This document shows, one piece after another, positions 24,768-60,451 of a stretch of 64,000 bases of DNA; position 1 is the stretch's first letter, and each line of letters starts with the position of its first letter. Where the stretch lies: assembly GCF_003634105.1 (NCBI RefSeq), contig NZ_RBIQ01000008.1, positions 248,001-312,000 on the forward strand, read 5' to 3'. A model generated the notes under the pieces. It saw only the letters and a program-made list of their open reading frames with translations, searched no databases and was not told where the DNA came from. The DNA comes from Maribacter vaceletii. Its GTDB lineage: Bacteria > Bacteroidota > Bacteroidia > Flavobacteriales > Flavobacteriaceae. The position numbers and the translations under genes are program-made.

Positions 24768-24833
24768 GCGTGTAAAATATACCTAAAGCCCTGAGATTTG
24801 ATTAAAACTAACTATCGGGATACTCATAAAAAA
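24768..24833. repeat. Dispersed repeat, copy 2 (first copy at 13794-13850)
   Basis: The blocks TGTAAAATATACCTAAAG, CCTGAGA and GATTAAAACTAACTATCGGG occur in the same order as at 13794-13850. Confidence 0.45.
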
Positions 24834-24858
24834 GATTCATAACCTTCCTTTTTTTGGT

Positions 24859-25374
24859 TTAGAAGGCTCCTTTAAGAACCTCTTCGTACCAAATAAAATT
24901 TTCTAATTCGTATTCGTTACCGTCAATGGTTTGAATATTCATATCTAAATAAAGTAGATAGTCATCACTACTCCCAGGATGGCTACAATCTACGTAGTCT
25001 TCCCTATCTGGAAAGTTCAGTAAAGGAGCATAATTAAGCACCTCTCCAGGGCCTGGAACAAATGCTGATTGTACTACCAGCCTTATTGTAGTCTTGGTTG
25101 CCTCCACACTTTCAGTAACTTCTATTGCTTCCCCTGTTCTCGAATCCGTTAAAGTATTCCGTAACACTACCTGCTCAAAATAACGCGCAGGTAAGTCGTT
25201 TATAGTATTCATGGCAAATTCTATTATCAGGTTCCCAGACGCGTCTTTTTCTACTTTGTCAATATTTATTGAAATAAAGGTGTCGCCAAATTGGTCACAA
25301 TTGTCTTTCCAACAACTAGATAATTGAAAGGCCACTACTAACAAAATGAACATATTTTTGGTTCTCATAAACAT
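24859..25374 (-). CDS. Lipoprotein of unknown function
   Basis: A 171-residue lipoprotein (signal FILLVVAFQLSSC, then WKDNCDQFGD). The mature part is acidic and beta-rich with two further Cys residues and no motif I recognise. GC content looks higher than in the neighbouring genes. It is flanked on both sides by repeat-containing non-coding DNA, as a single-gene cassette would be. Confidence 0.72.
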   Translation of the reverse strand: MFMRTKNMFILLVVAFQLSSCWKDNCDQFGDTFISINIDKVEKDASGNLIIEFAMNTINDLPARYFEQVVLRNTLTDSRTGEAIEVTESVEATKTTIRLVVQSAFVPGPGEVLNYAPLLNFPDREDYVDCSHPGSSDDYLLYLDMNIQTIDGNEYELENFIWYEEVLKGAF

Positions 25375-25480
25375 AGTTTTTTTTGATTATATATCGTTTT
25401 ATGAAAATGAAAGAGGAAGGTTAACACCCTAAGCTATATATATCCTCATTTACCTGATTTTACGCACCAACCAAAGCAAA

Positions 25481-25554
25481 GTTACATAACGCAGAACATT
25501 ATGAAACAGAAATGTTCCATAATTCAGCGTTATATAAAATAGCGATAAGTTATT
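25481..25554. repeat. attC-like imperfect hairpin element, copy B
   Basis: It is 74 bp long and differs from copy A (23654-23727) at seven positions. Several differences lie opposite each other in the stem (left CGCAGAA, right TTCAGCG, versus CGCGGAA and TCCGACG), so pairing is largely kept in both copies. It lies on the 3' side of the micro-gene array. Confidence 0.6.
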
Positions 25555-25707
25555 TCTAATGGAAGTGAATTCCTAGACATTACATAGGTTAGTATTTGCG
25601 TTTGTAGCCTAATAGCCGTGGAGTTTATACGGAGCTTATCGAAGTATAAATTTTCCGCACAGCCAACTGGGAACAATTCTTACGAAATAAAAATATGAAC
25701 CTATAAG

Positions 25708-25748
25708 AAAGGGACACATTGATTAAGTGTGTCCCTTTTTAAGTCTTT
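25708..25748. terminator. Hairpin terminator downstream of the micro-gene array
   Basis: An 11-bp perfect stem (AAAGGGACACA at 25708-25718, TGTGTCCCTTT at 25728-25738) with a 9-base loop. On the plus strand it is followed by TTTTT-type runs; on the minus strand, which carries the peptide genes, by TTTCTT. It lies 20 bases past the last micro-gene stop and can end minus-strand transcripts. Confidence 0.6.
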
Positions 25749-25758
25749 TTTTATTACC

Positions 25759-25893
25759 CTATGAAAGGTAATACATTTGATCTACCCCACGAATCTTTTT
25801 ACTATTCTTAAAATTGGAAAAGAAAACGAATTTTTTAGATTCTGTTGGATAATAGACTTGGTTTTTGATGGCTTGATTAATGTATGTTTTCAT
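25759..25893 (-). CDS. Basic 44-residue peptide, divergent member of the micro-gene array
   Basis: ATG at 25893, TAG at 25759. The peptide starts MKTYINQAIKNQ and has a central FFSNFKNSKKIR. Both parts match the layout of the three 37-residue peptides upstream (MKASINKTV and YFSSFRSSKR): the shared pattern is M-K-x2-I-N near the start and F-S-x-F-(K/R)-x-S-K-(K/R) in the second half. It has about eight Lys/Arg against two acidic residues, no signal peptide and no transmembrane helix. It is the most downstream of the four, just before a hairpin terminator. Function is unknown. Confidence 0.68.
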   Translation of the reverse strand: MKTYINQAIKNQVYYPTESKKFVFFSNFKNSKKIRGVDQMYYLS

Positions 25894-25933
25894 GACCTTG
25901 TTGTTTTTTGTTGATGATATTTACAAATCGTAA

Positions 25934-26047
25934 TTAGCGATTAAAATTCCTATACTGTGCCCATTGTGCTCTTTTGCTAGAGCGAAATGAAGAAAAATAC
26001 TGTCCTGTTTTAGTTTCTGTTACTGTTTTGTTGATTGATGCTTTCAT
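25934..26047 (-). CDS. Basic 37-residue peptide, array copy 1
   Basis: ATG at 26047, TAA at 25934. The peptide starts MKASINKTVTETKTG and continues with YFSSFRSSKR and AQWAQYRNFNR. It is strongly basic (eight Lys/Arg, one Glu) and rich in Tyr, Phe and Trp towards the C-terminus. Compared with copy 2, five codons differ and four of the changes are silent (CAA/CAG, GCA/GCG, AGG/AGA, CGC/CGA); only one alters a residue (Phe35 to Tyr). That pattern supports translation and selection on the peptide. No homologue is recognised. Confidence 0.72.
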   Translation of the reverse strand: MKASINKTVTETKTGQYFSSFRSSKRAQWAQYRNFNR

Positions 26048-26181
26048 GATTTTATATTTTTAAAATGTTTGTTGTTTATTGATAGTGCAAATGTGCTTCG
26101 ATTTAGAAGAAAAAGAAAATGCTTATTACCGAGTTGTATTTTTTAATTACTCAATTGTTGTTATTTTCTTTACAACTGATA

Positions 26182-26295
26182 TTATCGATTATAATTTCTA
26201 TACTGCGCCCACTGTGCTCTTTTGCTAGAGCGAAATGAAGAAAAATACTGTCCTGTTTTAGTTTCTGTTACTGTTTTGTTGATTGATGCTTTCAT
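26182..26295 (-). CDS. Basic 37-residue peptide, array copy 2
   Basis: ATG at 26295, TAA at 26182. The product is identical to copy 3 and differs from copy 1 only at residue 35 (Tyr instead of Phe). Its 134-bp upstream region on the minus strand is nearly identical to that of copy 1 and contains CACATTTG, one base off the -7 consensus TAnnTTTG, so each copy probably has its own promoter. Confidence 0.72.
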   Translation of the reverse strand: MKASINKTVTETKTGQYFSSFRSSKRAQWAQYRNYNR

Positions 26296-26429
26296 GATTT
26301 TATATTTTTAAATTGTTTGTTGTTTATTGATAGTACAAATGTGCTTCGATTTAGAAGAAAAAGAAAATGCTTATTACCGAGTTGTATTTTTTAATTACTC
26401 AATTGTTGTTATTTTCTTTACAACTGATA

Positions 26430-26543
26430 TTATCGATTATAATTTCTATACTGCGCCCACTGTGCTCTTTTGCTAGAGCGAAATGAAGAAAAATACTGCC
26501 CTGTTTTAGTTTCTGTTACTGTTTTGTTGATTGATGCTTTCAT
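26430..26543 (-). CDS. Basic 37-residue peptide, array copy 3
   Basis: ATG at 26543, TAA at 26430. The peptide is identical to that of copy 2; the single base difference found between them (GGA to GGG) is silent. The upstream sequence differs completely from that of the other copies, so its promoter may be distinct. The 281-bp gap to the CPBP protease gene upstream holds no other gene. Confidence 0.72.
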   Translation of the reverse strand: MKASINKTVTETKTGQYFSSFRSSKRAQWAQYRNYNR

Positions 26544-26823
26544 GATTGGTTGTTTTTAATATTCTAATTATTAATTGTTTATACTTCGTTTATACCCAAT
26601 AGACGAGTATGCGTTTATTTTGTTACAGTACTATGCATAAAAAGGTACTATATTATATAAATTTTAACATTTTAGACAATAAATTAATAGCGCATACTAG
26701 TACCGAAATAGCATTTTTCTTTAAATATCATGAAACAAATTAACTTCTGGTATTTTTAAAGCTTTAACAGTTGTATCGCATTTCCAGCAATTCCTTTACT
26801 TGTTAAATACATAATAATTGTAT
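26544..26823. other. Non-coding leader region of the peptide array
   Basis: A/T-rich, no gene seen. It contains an 8-bp inverted pair AGTATGCG (26606-26613) / CGCATACT (26691-26698) with repeated GGTACTA/TAGTACC words between and beside the arms, a possible operator or leader structure for the array. Confidence 0.35.
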
Positions 26824-27561
26824 TTATAAAAACAGTAATTGTTGAAACCATTCATTTACGATACTATCTTTATTTAAATAAATTAAAGTAATCCAAATAG
26901 AATCATATATACCATGAATTAAAACTAATAGTAATAAGTTAGTTTTGTTTTTATAATATAATGCAGCAAAAAATAAGCTTCCAATGCCCACTCCTATTAT
27001 TCCTGATAATCCTTGGTATCCATGTGAAATCCCAAAATAGATCGCAATTAATACTCCAGATAGTAACCATGCTTTGTTAGTGTCTCCAAATAGTTTAGCA
27101 AATTGTCGCATATAATACCCATGAAAAAGTAGTTCTTCGCCAAAGGCTGCAAAAACCCACATCATTGCCATCATTCCTAAATAACTACCAAAGTCACCTC
27201 TAATATCATCTAATGAGCTTAAATTATGGGCTCCTAAATAATACTGGATAATCGTATCAATTAAACCAGTAGCAAAAAAGAATAGAACGGATATCCAGAC
27301 ACTTTTTATTATGGTATTAAGATTTAATTTTTGCCCAATTCCAGAAAATGACCAATCCCATTTCTTTTGCCAAATAATAAATAGTGTAATGCCTAATCCA
27401 AAAAAGTAACCCAAGTTTCTATCTACTAAAGATAACAGTGTTGCAATTAGTATTACGAATACTACCGCATAAGGTTTTGTTACATAATTAAATAATTTAG
27501 TTTTACTCATGACATTATTATTGTTTTTTTTGTGTTCGTGATTTTTCGTTGAAAAGTTCAT
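26824..27561 (-). CDS. CPBP family intramembrane metalloprotease
   Basis: A 245-residue membrane protein with about eight helices and the CPBP (Rce1/Abi) motifs: EE in GEELLFHGYYMR (residues 141-152), FxxxH in FGISH (176-180) and HxxxD in HGIYD (216-220). The first motif has HG where many members have RG. CPBP proteases mature prenylated proteins in eukaryotes; in bacteria they are often linked to bacteriocin immunity or peptide processing. It is 11 bases downstream of the metallophosphatase gene and precedes the micro-gene array on the same strand. Met18 is an alternative start. Confidence 0.85.
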   Translation of the reverse strand: MNFSTKNHEHKKNNNNVMSKTKLFNYVTKPYAVVFVILIATLLSLVDRNLGYFFGLGITLFIIWQKKWDWSFSGIGQKLNLNTIIKSVWISVLFFFATGLIDTIIQYYLGAHNLSSLDDIRGDFGSYLGMMAMMWVFAAFGEELLFHGYYMRQFAKLFGDTNKAWLLSGVLIAIYFGISHGYQGLSGIIGVGIGSLFFAALYYKNKTNLLLLVLIHGIYDSIWITLIYLNKDSIVNEWFQQLLFL

Positions 27562-27572
27562 TTTTTGAATTT

Positions 27573-28745
27573 TTATAATTGTTTCTTTTCTCCATTTGCT
27601 AATACCTGAAAGTATTTTCCTTTTGTTATTAGTAGGCCTTCCGATTTTTTAAATGGCCAATGTTTACTATAATCTTTTGGGTGTTTAACATCGATAGCAA
27701 ATACTTTTCCATTGAATAATTTATTTACATTCCATTGCAATGTATGACCAACAACAACTGCTTTACCGTTAAATTGGTTAATGCCCTTTTCAACATCTTC
27801 TTGAGATAAATCCTCATTAAAATAACCTCTATACCAGCTTATTCCTTTTTTACTAGAGGTAATTAGTTGGGCAACAGTTTCTTCTGGTTTAGGAAAAAAG
27901 GCTTTGCGATAGTTGCCTCTATTAATGTGATTGACCTCGTCTATACTAATATCATAATTTGCAAAATCTGGATGTATGCCTCCATGAACAAAAAGATGCC
28001 CATTAATTAGTTCTATAGTGTTTTTGGAGGTCATCCACCTTCCTAAAAATGCGTTTTCATCGTATAGGTTATGTTGCTGTTTACCAAGGATTGATGCTAC
28101 GCCATTATATTTATAAGAAGCAGATTTAAATTTTCCTTGTAAATTGTAGAGTTCATGATTTCCTATAATAAAATGGACGTGTCCGCCCTGTTTTTTAGCG
28201 TCTTGCTCTAGTTTATACATAAACCAAAGTACTTGCGTAGTTGAAAACCCCCTATCCATAAAGTCGCCAACCAATACAAGATGCCCTTTACCAAATGTCC
28301 AATTTAGATTGGTATCAATTACTTTGCTGTTAATAAGGAAGTCTCTAAAGGCTTTATAACCACTCTCAATATCTGAAACAGCAAGTATAGGTTCCTTATC
28401 CGAATACGTACTATTGGGAATTTTAAAATTAGAATTTAAGGTGAAATTGAAGGTTGAATCGTCTAAAGGAAAATAACAACTGGAAGGAATTTTTTCATTT
28501 ATAGCATATTCCTTTTGATCAAGATAAAATCCATCTGTTTTATTTCCTTTAATGTAGTTAACATTTAGGGTGCTGTCTGTTTCATAAAAAACGTATGGCC
28601 CTTCGTTTTCTAAATTTAGTTTTAACGGATTATCGCCAAAATCAAATGTGCCATTTAGTGCGACTACCGTTATAACTCCTAAAATTAGTAGCACTGTTAT
28701 GGTCCCGAAAATGTGCTTTAAATAACGTAAAATTCTTTTTTTCAT
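27573..28745 (-). CDS. Membrane-anchored calcineurin-like metallophosphatase
   Basis: A 390-residue protein with one N-terminal transmembrane helix (GTITVLLILGVITVVAL) and a periplasmic metallophosphatase domain. Metal-binding motifs are GDFMDRG (residues 160-166), GNHE (195-198), a later LFVHGG and VVVGHTLQW. The first motif reads SDIES (124-128), with Glu where most family members have His in D-x-H. The domain resembles Shewanella-like protein phosphatases. The substrate is unknown. It heads the two-gene operon with the CPBP protease. Confidence 0.82.
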   Translation of the reverse strand: MKKRILRYLKHIFGTITVLLILGVITVVALNGTFDFGDNPLKLNLENEGPYVFYETDSTLNVNYIKGNKTDGFYLDQKEYAINEKIPSSCYFPLDDSTFNFTLNSNFKIPNSTYSDKEPILAVSDIESGYKAFRDFLINSKVIDTNLNWTFGKGHLVLVGDFMDRGFSTTQVLWFMYKLEQDAKKQGGHVHFIIGNHELYNLQGKFKSASYKYNGVASILGKQQHNLYDENAFLGRWMTSKNTIELINGHLFVHGGIHPDFANYDISIDEVNHINRGNYRKAFFPKPEETVAQLITSSKKGISWYRGYFNEDLSQEDVEKGINQFNGKAVVVGHTLQWNVNKLFNGKVFAIDVKHPKDYSKHWPFKKSEGLLITKGKYFQVLANGEKKQL

Positions 28746-28967: not shown

Positions 28968-29792
28968 ATGATAAATTGGATGGAAAAAAATAAAAACGCC
29001 CTTATTATAATTGGTGTAGTATCTATACTAATTCCATTAGTATATGTAAGCTATAAACTCTTTACTGAAGAAGGAAGTTCTGTCGCAATTTCATTAGATT
29101 TTAACCCGATTACGGGATATACCTTGATTGCATATTACACGTTACTGATTGGATTGATAATAGGAGGTGTTATCTATTGGATTATAAGGAACATCAAATC
29201 AATTATTAGATTAAAGAACGAAAAAGCAAAAACGGAATTGATGCATTTAAAAAGTCAGGTGAATCCACATTTCTTTTTTAATATGCTTAATAACCTTTAT
29301 GGCTTAGTAAGTAAAGATTCTAAAAAAGCACAAGAGCTCATTTTAAAACTATCAGATATGATGCGTTATAGTATTTATGATGGCGAAAAAGAGACGGTTC
29401 TACTTTCTGAAGAAGTAATATATTTAGAAAATTATATAGAACTTCATAAAATGCGTTATCATAAAACTATTGATATACAATTTCATATTGATATTAAGGA
29501 TGATGATTATGAGATAATGCCACTTCTGTTTATCATACTTTTAGAAAATGCATTTAAACATGGAGTAGAAAATTTAAGAGAACATGCTTTTGTTAGAATA
29601 AATTTAGAAGCCCATAACAATATCGTTAATTTTGAAATAGAAAATAACTTTGAAGCTAGTGAAAATCATGAAGCAGGAATAGGTTTAAAAAATTTAAAAC
29701 GTAGATTAGAGATTGTATACCCCAAAAGGCATATGTTAACCATATATGAAGCTAATAGTATTTATAATGCTAAATTGAATATAACACTATGA
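28968..29792 (+). CDS. LytS-type sensor histidine kinase
   Basis: A 274-residue kinase with two transmembrane helices (residues about 12-32 and 50-73) and a short external loop, then a His_kinase domain with the phosphoacceptor His101 in LKSQVNPHFFFNMLNNL and a HATPase with LLENAFKHGVENLREH and GIGLKNLKRRLEIVY. It lacks a recognisable extracellular sensor domain. Its stop overlaps the start of the LytTR response regulator gene by 4 bases, so the two form a two-component system. Confidence 0.9.
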   Translation: MINWMEKNKNALIIIGVVSILIPLVYVSYKLFTEEGSSVAISLDFNPITGYTLIAYYTLLIGLIIGGVIYWIIRNIKSIIRLKNEKAKTELMHLKSQVNPHFFFNMLNNLYGLVSKDSKKAQELILKLSDMMRYSIYDGEKETVLLSEEVIYLENYIELHKMRYHKTIDIQFHIDIKDDDYEIMPLLFIILLENAFKHGVENLREHAFVRINLEAHNNIVNFEIENNFEASENHEAGIGLKNLKRRLEIVYPKRHMLTIYEANSIYNAKLNITL

Positions 29793-30490
29793 TTACGTAT
29801 TTAATAATAGATGATGAACATATAGCACATGATATTATAAAAGGCTATTGTGATATGCTACCCAATTTAGAATTTAAAGCCAATTGTTATGATGCCATAG
29901 AAGCTCTTGATTATTTGAGTAAACACAAGGTTGATTTAATTTTTTTAGATTTAAATATGCCCAAATTAAAAGGGTTTGAATTTTTGAAAACCTTATCATT
30001 TCCTCCAAAAGTTATTGTAACTACGGCATATAGTGAATTTGCCATAGAAGGCTACGAATTAAATGTTGTTGATTATTTATTAAAACCATTTAGTTTTGAA
30101 CGCTTTTTGAGTGCTGTGAATAAAGTGACAACTTCTAACACAAACACAGTAAAAAAGGAAACTAATACAAACTTAAAACCTGAAGAAAAGCACATTTTTC
30201 TAAAACAAAATAATAGTCATATTCAAGTGGATTTAGATACCATACTATTTGTTGAAGCGTCAGGAAATTACACCAAAGTGGTCACTACAAACGACACCAT
30301 AACCATCCGCGAAAAAATATCTGATACTATACAATTACTTCCTAATAATAATTTTCTTCAAGTACATAAATCATTTGCAGTCGCAAAAAAACATATAAAG
30401 AGTATTGAAGGAAATCGGATTTATATTCAACAGCATACTATTCCTATTGGGAAATTGTTTAAAACAAATGTTAATCAGCTATTTAAGTAG
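29789..30490 (+). CDS. LytR/AlgR-type response regulator (LytTR domain)
   Basis: A 233-residue regulator: receiver domain (residues 1-115) with DDE at 8-10, phospho-acceptor Asp54 in LIFLDLNMPKLKG and Lys in YLLKPFSFERF, then a LytTR DNA-binding domain (about 140-233) with ILFVEASGNYTKVVT and FLQVHKSFAVAKKHI. It is translationally coupled to the kinase gene. Targets are unknown; the region after it carries repeats rather than a co-directional gene. Confidence 0.9.
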   Translation: MITYLIIDDEHIAHDIIKGYCDMLPNLEFKANCYDAIEALDYLSKHKVDLIFLDLNMPKLKGFEFLKTLSFPPKVIVTTAYSEFAIEGYELNVVDYLLKPFSFERFLSAVNKVTTSNTNTVKKETNTNLKPEEKHIFLKQNNSHIQVDLDTILFVEASGNYTKVVTTNDTITIREKISDTIQLLPNNNFLQVHKSFAVAKKHIKSIEGNRIYIQQHTIPIGKLFKTNVNQLFK

Positions 30491-55903: not shown

Positions 55904-56803
55904 CTAATTGCAAGATGTATTTAATTCTTGGTAATCGGATAAAGATACTGTTGGTATGTTTTGCCGACTCTCTAACTTAATACAGGTTAAATCTGGATTT
56001 CTATCTACCCTTAAATCAATTAATTTAGGATTTTTGCTTATATCGAGAGTGTTAAGTAAATTACTTGAACTATATAGATGCGTTAAACTAGTATTATTCT
56101 CAAGATTTATGTTTTGAAGCTTGTTGCCGGAAATAACTAAGGTTTCTAACAATGTGTTTGAGCTGAAATCAACTGTTGTAAGTTGATTAAGTATTATTAA
56201 AACATTTTTTAGATTTACAGCATCATTTGTGTTTATAGATTTCAATAGATTATGACTAATGAGCAACACCTCAATAGATTCATTATTAATGCTAATTTCT
56301 TCAAAGTTATTAAAGGATAAATTTACATTTTTCAATTTTTTCAATTTTGATAATCCATTAATTGTACTAAGTTCATTGGACTGAATATCTAACAGAACTA
56401 GATTTATATTATTACTAATGTCAATTGTGGTAAGATTATTTCCATTAAGAATTAAAGTGTCTAATTTAGTGTTATAGCTTAAATCCACAGTTTCAATTTT
56501 TTGTCCAGTCGCATAAAATGACTTTATGTTTATAAAACCTTCAATACCTCTTAAATCGGTGATTTCACCAAAGTTAGCAGAATGGTTTAAATCTAATAAA
56601 TTAACCTTAGCAGCATCTGATTTTAACATTTTTTGATTAATAATACCATCAGAGTCAATACCTTGTTCTACCAAAATATTTTCAAAATGACCGTCTGGGA
56701 TATCTAAATAAATATCATTTATAGTTTCATCATTACTACAAGAGAGAGCAAAACAAGATGTTATTAGGATGAATATTATTGTTGCGATTTTTATGTTATG
56801 CAT
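55904..56803 (-). CDS. Leucine-rich repeat lipoprotein
   Basis: A 299-residue lipoprotein (IFILITSCFALSC with the lipidated Cys, then SNDETINDIYLDI). After an N-terminal part typical of flavobacterial LRR proteins (FENILVEQGIDSDGIINQKM) it holds about eight leucine-rich repeats of the LxxLxLxxNxL type (LDTLILNGNNLTTIDISNNI, LLETLVISGNKLQNINLENN). It is likely an outer-surface adhesion or binding protein. Confidence 0.87.
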   Translation of the reverse strand: MHNIKIATIIFILITSCFALSCSNDETINDIYLDIPDGHFENILVEQGIDSDGIINQKMLKSDAAKVNLLDLNHSANFGEITDLRGIEGFINIKSFYATGQKIETVDLSYNTKLDTLILNGNNLTTIDISNNINLVLLDIQSNELSTINGLSKLKKLKNVNLSFNNFEEISINNESIEVLLISHNLLKSINTNDAVNLKNVLIILNQLTTVDFSSNTLLETLVISGNKLQNINLENNTSLTHLYSSSNLLNTLDISKNPKLIDLRVDRNPDLTCIKLESRQNIPTVSLSDYQELNTSCN

Positions 56804-56957: not shown

Positions 56958-57078
56958 ATTATTATTATTAGGGAGAATTACACTTTATTAAGACGAGTTA
57001 ATACTATGATTGTTACACTTGTTTATATTAAAGATTCAATTTCAATGATTCTTTAAAAGATTTTTGCTTTACTATTGA

Positions 57079-59632: not shown

Positions 59633-60358
59633 TTAATGTAATTTGCTATAGATTACCGGCATTTGCCCTTTCCATTTAGTCCATAAGTTGTTATCATGGA
59701 TTAAACTAGCCATAAAATGACCAACATTTATACGGCTAACTTTCCCGGCATTAAAAATTGCACTTCTTGTTGGTGAAGGGTGTATTTCATAATCGCTTAC
59801 TGCTACTTCATTAATTAAGCCATCTGGCCTTACAGTAACCCATTCTATAGATGTATTGTTTTGACCAATTTGAGTTCTTAAATAATCTGCTGCTTTCTCA
59901 TTATCTACATGCGGTGGTAATAACATACGAAGCAAACCAATAACGCATTTTTGAGCAAAAGAAATAGGTTCGTTTAAATCGCGATTACGATTGCCTGTAG
60001 TGTTCATTAAAACAAACTTTGTTGGTGTTTGGTGATTGTTCGCATTTATGGCATCACATAGCCGTTGTGTGGCATCAGTTACTAACCTTCTAGGCTTGCC
60101 ATATATTCCTTTCCAAGTTAAATTATGACCAAGACAAGACGCCACAGCATTACAATTGCTAACAATCTCCTGCATTTCTGTATCACTTAATTCTAATACA
60201 CTTGCAGAGATAACTTCCAGGGCTTCATTAGTTTTCCATGATTCTGGCAACTTTTCTGGAGACCTTACAATTACTTTTACCTTATGTTTTTCAATTAGAA
60301 GTTGCTCTACTAATTTACTACCCGTAGCGCCACTTGCTCCTACTACTAAAACTTTCAT
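59633..60358 (-). CDS. NAD(P)-binding SDR-like protein
   Basis: A 241-residue Rossmann protein of the NAD(P)H-binding/NmrA-like group: nucleotide motif VLVVGASGATGSKLVEQLL, then AVASCLGHNLTWKGI and IEWVTVRPDGLINEVAVS. It is probably an oxidoreductase or regulator of unknown substrate. Its last 34 residues have a decayed homologue at 56847-56957, so this gene or its ancestor was duplicated. It lies 93 bases downstream of the serine-hydrolase gene. Confidence 0.85.
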   Translation of the reverse strand: MKVLVVGASGATGSKLVEQLLIEKHKVKVIVRSPEKLPESWKTNEALEVISASVLELSDTEMQEIVSNCNAVASCLGHNLTWKGIYGKPRRLVTDATQRLCDAINANNHQTPTKFVLMNTTGNRNRDLNEPISFAQKCVIGLLRMLLPPHVDNEKAADYLRTQIGQNNTSIEWVTVRPDGLINEVAVSDYEIHPSPTRSAIFNAGKVSRINVGHFMASLIHDNNLWTKWKGQMPVIYSKLH

Positions 60359-60451
60359 ATTGATTTATTGATTGATGTATCTAAAAGACGTTTTGCTTCT
60401 AAATTTGTTACACTCTTAATTAATTTATAAGTGCAACCTATTATTTCTTTT

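Follow-up and report, generated by a model that had tools for sequence, protein, structure and literature searches.

A family of tandem micro-genes in Flavobacteriaceae and its putative ECF-type promoter cassette

This report concerns an array of four micro-genes (positions 25759-26543, minus strand) in a 64,000-nt stretch of the Maribacter vaceletii genome (contig NZ_RBIQ01000008.1, positions 248,001 to 312,000), hereafter referred to as the window. Comparisons with other Flavobacteriaceae indicate that the peptides belong to a real conserved protein family under purifying selection, and that the array genes are probably translated. From several lines of evidence we infer that the array is transcribed by an extracytoplasmic function (ECF) sigma factor, the probable gene of which is present in the same genome. 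The same peptides seem to be under the control of ECF, LytTR-like and AraC-type circuits. Stress-regulated operons for small proteins are as such of a known kind; the protein family and the promoter cassette look new.

The array and its protein family

A preliminary description of the window, made from the letters alone, gave the coordinates of the four genes, the lengths of their products (44, 37, 37 and 37 residues in coordinate order) and two motifs common to all four peptides, M-K-x2-I-N at the start and F-S-x-F-[KR]-x-S-K-[KR] later on, and all of these were correct when compared with the listing of open reading frames (ORFs; Table 1). The 37-mers read MKASINKTVTETKTGQYFSSFRSSKRAQWAQYRN[YF]NR and are contained in 248-bp direct repeats, two whole units of which are 97% identical, and the last gene has a divergent MKTYINQ...YPTESKKFVFFSNFKNSKKIRG... 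form. The 44-mer matched the family profile A1 at E = 1.7e-16, a value that includes the contribution of the 44-mer itself as a part of A1; independent support for its place in the family came from a phmmer search with the 44-mer alone, which matched an ORF of another genome at E = 4.8e-10. The codon counts given earlier were likewise accurate, with four silent changes and one replacement between the genes at 25934 and 26182, and one silent change between those at 26182 and 26430. These counts had been read as a sign of translated, selected peptides. Five silent changes alone are thin evidence, but the claim is sustained by the family-wide ratio of non-synonymous to synonymous substitution rates (dN/dS), an analysis that had been proposed together with a homologue search in Flavobacteriaceae.

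Across the computable identity bins of 129 unique group-A genes, dN/dS was 0.036-0.151, the most divergent bin being not computable. The 129 genes were chosen by a motif at positions 13-17 from 244 unique ungapped 37-codon genes, and the invariance of T14 and G15 in this set is therefore by construction. Codon-position entropy was 0.31, 0.33 and 0.95 bits, the third position being about three times more variable than the others. Raw frequencies at 272 distinct start sites, taken without a background set, placed an A at -3 in 81%, at -11 in 91% and at -12 in 93%. Such A-rich starts fit the translational determinant described for Flavobacterium johnsoniae, in which A-3 is reported to be a positive determinant (PMC6847099). 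Relative to neighbouring genes, the array genes were enriched in ATC (78 vs. 34%), TAC (61 vs. 31%) and TTC (40 vs. 28%) and used CAA more rarely (48 vs. 64%), a bias that supports high expression mildly at best.

When a single 37-mer was used as query, 22 of 199 genomes gave matches at E < 1e-3; stop-free homologues from other genera had identities of up to 89% and E-values down to 1.1e-17. Profile A1 was built from these matches, and the genomes concerned match it by construction; a genome not used for building it gave a match at 7e-22. Of 299 Flavobacteriaceae genomes, 39 had matches at E ≤ 1e-3 in profile searches; 36 of these, among them the window's own genome, are clear carriers, and the other three (G056, G117 and G269), with sole matches of E 2e-4 to 4e-4, are left out of the count. 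In the order sample (5 of 296 genomes matched) and the phylum sample (3 of 296), matches fell only within Flavobacteriaceae; in the A1 and A4 searches of family, order and phylum no genome had more than 25 first-look candidates scored, and absence from them is not proof. Named carriers include Maribacter, Arenibacter, Pricia, Ulvibacterium, Croceivirga, Croceitalea, Muriicola, Zeaxanthinibacter and Euzebyella. Since A1 was too variable for contig scans, the close group A2 was used for these, so the 77 named loci lean toward near relatives of the window.

Iteration of a hidden Markov model (HMM) on 118 stretches (117 with members) at E < 1e-4 yielded 119 arrays with 314 members, counts that are not independent because the same loci were in part fetched twice via two collections. 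Two to five genes occurred in 98 of the 119 arrays (1, 2, 3, 4 and 5 genes in 21, 33, 39, 20 and 6 arrays, respectively), and the gaps between array genes had a median of 45 bp (n = 195) with a second group near 119-136 bp. Last genes are often divergent, with the C-terminal core motif [KR][KR]x2W in 65 of 91 distinct last genes vs. all 157 distinct non-last genes. Tandem 24-residue natural variants (MRTTIFKNSKRIRWSEHRNYAIKS and near copies) that retain the C-terminal core only were seen at L168 and L170, in two genomes.

The suggestion that the peptides have no known family agreed with searches of five libraries, which gave only weak single-member matches in Pfam (best E 0.029), PADLOC (0.03), PHROGs (0.054) and PDB sequences (0.63), and no match in NCBIfam. 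No paper containing the peptide strings or on the topic was found in the open PMC literature; papers sharing an 11-base DNA string only were unrelated by title. Searches of phages, plasmids and viral contigs, in which the only queries were the 37-mer and close group A2, gave no match, and cargo of a mobile element or phage is an improbable explanation on this ground.

Table 1. Features of the array region, in window coordinates
Feature	Position	Strand	Basis
Array gene 1 (first transcribed), 37 residues	26430..26543	-	ORF listing, family HMM; ATG, A-rich start context
Array gene 2, 37 residues, peptide identical to that of gene 1	26182..26295	-	ORF listing, HMM, codon comparison
Array gene 3, 37 residues, single replacement of Y by F	25934..26047	-	ORF listing, HMM, codon comparison
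Array gene 4, 44 residues, divergent last member MKTYINQ...PTESKK...NSKKIR, core Trp absent	25759..25893	-	ORF listing, HMM
Putative ECF-type promoter TGTAAC-N16-CGTCT	26601..26627	-	3 sites in window vs. shuffle mean of 0.07
Array-specific element, TGTTAAA...AGTACC...AGTACT repeat, abutting -35 hexamer	26627..26669	-	Alignment of 47 elements <80% identical
LytTR-like 21-bp direct repeat ACAATTGAG-N12-ACAACTCGG, before gene 2	26377..26406	-	
LytTR-like 21-bp direct repeat ACAATTGAG-N12-ACAACTCGG, before gene 3	26129..26158	-	
Candidate -7 box CACATTTG of internal promoter, sigmaA consensus TAnnTTTG	26336..26343	-	
Candidate -7 box CACATTTG of internal promoter	26088..26095	-	
Stem-loop behind array, possible terminator	25706..25740	.	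Hairpin on minus strand, z -3.2

Promoter cassette and further candidate circuits

Promoters of ECF sigma factors carry AAC in the -35 region and CGTC in the -10 region. Of the 119 partly redundant arrays, 84 had an element of this type, TGTAAC-N16-CGTCT, in the 700 bp upstream (33 had none and 2 were cut short by the contig), and a safer figure than these counts is that of the 47 promoter elements with less than 80% identity. The distance from promoter to array was near-fixed: it was below 130 nt in 60 arrays and 130-230 nt in a further 23, with a single array at 327 nt. Before many arrays the promoter is part of a longer cassette, TGTTAAA...ATAGTACC-N9-ATAGTACTGTAACAAAA-N12-CGTCT, in which an AGTAC repeat precedes the -35 hexamer. 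The genomes scanned for the cassette numbered 36, namely the same-genus genome G152 and 35 others that had been selected because they contained family matches. An array gene was no more than 700 bp away from each of the 34 perfect AGTACTGTAAC-N16-CGTCT sites and from 4 of the 10 sites with one mismatch, where array positions were entered from the profile search and not from all of its rows; a backward control in the same genomes gave one match vs. 44 forward sites. In the window's own genome, searched at up to three mismatches, the sole perfect site was that of the array, the other 14 sites had three mismatches each, and the control gave 7.

Without the AGTAC part, the promoter pattern occurred at 10 sites in the genome of origin vs. 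one in the control, and these plain sites precede, among others, genes for an ECF sigma factor, DUF456, DUF4870, ankyrin and NmrA-type proteins, and an LRR lipoprotein. The probable sigma gene, at L213 (C2:692378 of the same genome), encodes Sigma70_r2 and r4 domains behind a TGTAAC..CGTCT promoter of its own and is followed by a gene for an anti-sigma-like membrane protein, which has no Pfam match, and then by a DUF4252-like gene, the latter two labels coming from a reading of the sequence. The sigma gene was found in 28 of 28 genomes tested; in 24 of these 28, TGTAAC..CGTC stood at the expected place before it, as in an autoregulated sigma operon. The known system closest in these respects is motif SM6 of F. 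psychrophilum, where an ECF motif containing a CGT box is reported to stand before an operon of sigma and anti-sigma genes and to rise when nutrients are low (PMC9723704). The likeness lies in the motif and the operon layout; on the other hand, the consulted parts of the paper describe no tandem micro-gene arrays and state no -35 sequence, and the AGTAC repeat is additional here.

Two of the plain promoter sites lie in the window itself, both on the minus strand, one at 60386-60412 before the NmrA-type gene (59633-60358) and the other at 56991-57017 upstream of the LRR lipoprotein gene (55904-56803). As a separate observation, one of the six stray one-mismatch cassette sites, L217, precedes a row of tiny ORFs, two of 28 residues with IWN[ST]KRRY near the end and one of 43, which may represent another branch of the family.

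Internal regulation of the array may be of a different kind. LytTR-activated promoters are preceded by direct repeats spaced at about two helical turns. Both 134-bp gaps of the window array hold a 21-bp repeat and a CACATTTG box, and they have the layout expected of such a promoter, which we call LytTR-like. The LytTR-like repeat was present in 16 of the 20 distinct gaps that measure 120-160 bp (base shuffles: mean 0.006, maximum 1), a comparison in which the pattern was read off these same gaps, some of them related, and the shuffles test composition only; a -7 box with any base before AnnTTTG was present in 18 of the 20. A gene for a LytTR response regulator is located in the window at 29789-30490. 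As in the promoters regulated by AgrA (PMC4227749), two direct repeats stand upstream of a putative promoter; those of the window are 21 bp apart and are followed by a sigmaA-like -7 box.

A third possible input is suggested by 13 arrays that have no ECF element and face a divergent gene of an AraC-TPR cluster at 165-371 nt, mostly at about 237 nt; one cluster representative was scanned, and the member at L139 is a shorter protein. In 12 of these 13, a gene of cluster c9 or c33 follows within 200 bp, c9 being ankyrin in the one member scanned and c33 an exported protein by reading of the sequence. Arrays with the AraC-TPR gene on one side and the ankyrin or exported-protein gene on the other were noted at L081, L083, L093, L096, L098, L103, L107, L108, L116, L120, L133 and L176.

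The stem-loop behind the window array was called by the terminator scan on the plus strand only, the U-tract on the minus strand being weaker. A relaxed Rfam scan of 24800-27600 gave two matches, both below the gathering score; one of them, cow-rumen-4 (E 0.29, plus strand), falls on this hairpin and was judged to be due to chance.

Proposed role and competing explanations

Our best explanation, which we hold tentatively and consider a little short of probable, is that the array is a self-contained operon supplying cytosolic basic peptides in a measured dose when they are needed, and that these would dock on one partner. An envelope- or starvation-type signal would free the ECF sigma factor, which is encoded in an operon with the anti-sigma-like and DUF4252-like genes that carries the same promoter. 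The sigma factor would then transcribe the array, with a further regulator acting as a gate at the AGTAC repeat. A LytTR regulator may add output from the internal promoters and the repeated genes would raise the dose, so that gene copy number, together with both promoter types of the window, would determine the dosage, with AraC-type input elsewhere. The peptides would form a short helix, the K-R-x2-W-x3-R(-x3-R) face of which would bind one acidic or nucleic-acid partner stoichiometrically and change the activity of that partner during stress.

Several properties of the peptides are consistent with such a role. The 314 family members have a charge of +1 to +9 (median +6) and 16% aromatic residues, and by reading of the sequence, not by a predictor, the array peptides have no signal peptide. 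An AlphaFold model of the 37-mer has two helices (9-22 and 25-35), with the best confidence in the second half. Residues R26, W29, R33 and R37 are present in 129 of 129 group-A genes and fall within 80 degrees of the helix, and only 1.3% of four-position sets in 25-37 are as tight. Sda is a small helical-hairpin inhibitor of about 40 residues, and the array peptides would resemble it in size, in their two predicted helices (from a weak model) and in the stoichiometric action proposed; the family profile has no significant match to any PDB chain.

A broader proposition, which we regard as conceivable though rather doubtful, is that the array belongs to a clade-specific stress system in which at least two apparently unrelated peptide families (KRxxW, and GFGW as described below) share a promoter cassette with a dedicated DNA element, and in which ECF, LytTR-like and AraC-type circuits have been separately wired to the same peptides. 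The peptides would then be ligands defined by a helix motif of about 15 residues, and the AGTAC element itself may be regulated by one of them. Dosing of a 37-residue protein from several genes by several circuits suggests a stoichiometric regulator, the target of which would be new biology for marine flavobacteria. Annotation easily overlooks genes of fewer than 50 codons, and the stress regulons of Bacteroidota are poorly mapped; the conserved cassette marks tiny genes without a protein search and offers a direct route to finding them.

A number of observations weigh against the dosed-operon explanation. The 44-mer of the window and 26 of the 91 distinct last genes are without [KR][KR]x2W, and no constant partner gene adjoins the arrays according to neighbour clustering. 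By the pattern used, 35 of the 119 arrays have no ECF element (2 of them contig-cut), and 22 of these 35 are not beside a divergent AraC-TPR-cluster gene, leaving the 13 mentioned above. Seven of the 36 genomes have no cassette at up to one mismatch, and six of the seven have family matches. Genome G152 has the sigma gene and no array detected by the 37-mer and profile searches, which implies that the array is dispensable. The AlphaFold model of the 37-mer is weak (mean predicted local distance difference test score, pLDDT, 68), the helix-face test was post hoc, and the family-wide set of K25, R26, W29 and R33 is weaker (100 degrees, 5.2%). Finally, neither helix of the window peptide had a hydrophobic moment above that of shuffles (0.16 and 0.30).

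The strongest rival, which is a special case, is that the peptides are nucleic-acid- or ribosome-binding mini-proteins. Their basic-aromatic face would grip RNA or DNA, and under stress they might act, for instance, as a translation brake or an RNA chaperone. We consider this somewhat improbable. The charge and aromatic content of the family and the R-W-R-R residues on one helix face speak for it, as does an EF-G-like gene beside some arrays (9 loci in the cluster, one representative scanned); however, that neighbourhood is confined to few loci and could reflect local synteny, searches among nucleic-acid binders gave no sequence relative, and K/R composition alone is weak evidence. A different fate for the peptides, secretion, comes to mind by analogy with the staphylococcal phenol-soluble modulins (PSMs), of which psm-alpha encodes several leaderless tiny peptides in tandem under a LytTR-type regulator. 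Leaderless antimicrobial or signalling peptides dosed by a PSM-type operon might look like tandem tiny cationic genes with LytTR-like repeats. Yet the window peptides are hydrophilic and strongly basic with an ECF-type promoter, no recurrent exporter was noticed among the neighbour clusters, and the sequence is conserved across genera and not diversifying, which makes secretion unlikely. An amphipathic membrane peptide of the PSM type was tried and rejected on the hydrophobic moment, which was no better than that of shuffles.

The preliminary description had also hinted at crosslinked peptides from the spacing of Lys and Trp. Precursors of ribosomally synthesized and post-translationally modified peptides (RiPPs), crosslinked or otherwise modified, could account for the K-x3-W spacing, the several aromatic residues, the multiple gene copies, and the conserved start and more variable C-terminus of the last genes. 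The hint was not supported, in that the K-x3-W spacing is equally well explained by the helix face and the C-terminal part, the would-be core, is conserved in every distinct non-last gene. Among 1221 neighbouring proteins within 6 kb of the 119 arrays, CX3CX2C occurred in four, two of which resemble radical-SAM enzymes (by reading, one HemN-like and one MoaA-like), neither of these two being recurrent; YcaO, ATP-grasp and other maturases were not sought. RiPP precursors are thus very improbable, and we would place at about the same low level the possibility that the array is a row of toxin genes of the toxin-antitoxin type. Toxins would agree with tandem tiny genes that are dispensable within a genus, but the peptides appear soluble and not membrane-spanning by reading of the sequence, and PADLOC offered weak single-member matches only, an antisense antitoxin not having been searched for. 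Least credible of all is a regulatory RNA in which the reading frame is incidental. The conserved leader and the short spacing would be in keeping with it; the low dN/dS, the third-position entropy, the lack of internal stop codons in any match at E < 0.005 and the two sub-gathering Rfam matches for the region are not.

Neighbouring genes and companion peptides

Recurrent neighbour clusters of the arrays were AraC-TPR, class III cyclase, DUF4251 and EF-G-like, for each of which one representative was scanned, and they look like local synteny. A membrane class III nucleotide cyclase gene was observed divergent to 13 arrays (L060, L062, L064, L076, L082, L102 and others; redundant counts).

A second small ORF with a GFGW pattern was located upstream of the first gene in 15 of the 84 ECF arrays. 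A looser search found 17 such companion peptides in L060-L136, most of them before the array and two inside it (L063 and L120), and none in the window. Their consensus is M-x-T-L-H-P-H-L-x-R-P-K-I-Y-F-x-I-G-F-G-W-N-T-D-R-W-Y-D-Q-K, and 16 aligned companions had no Pfam match at E ≤ 0.1. Companions of 35-42 residues with RPKIYFxIGFGWNTDRWYDQ were noted just upstream of the arrays at L061, L065, L121, L124, L130 and others. A weak model of the first companion peptide (mean pLDDT 74.5) has a beta hairpin plus a helix.
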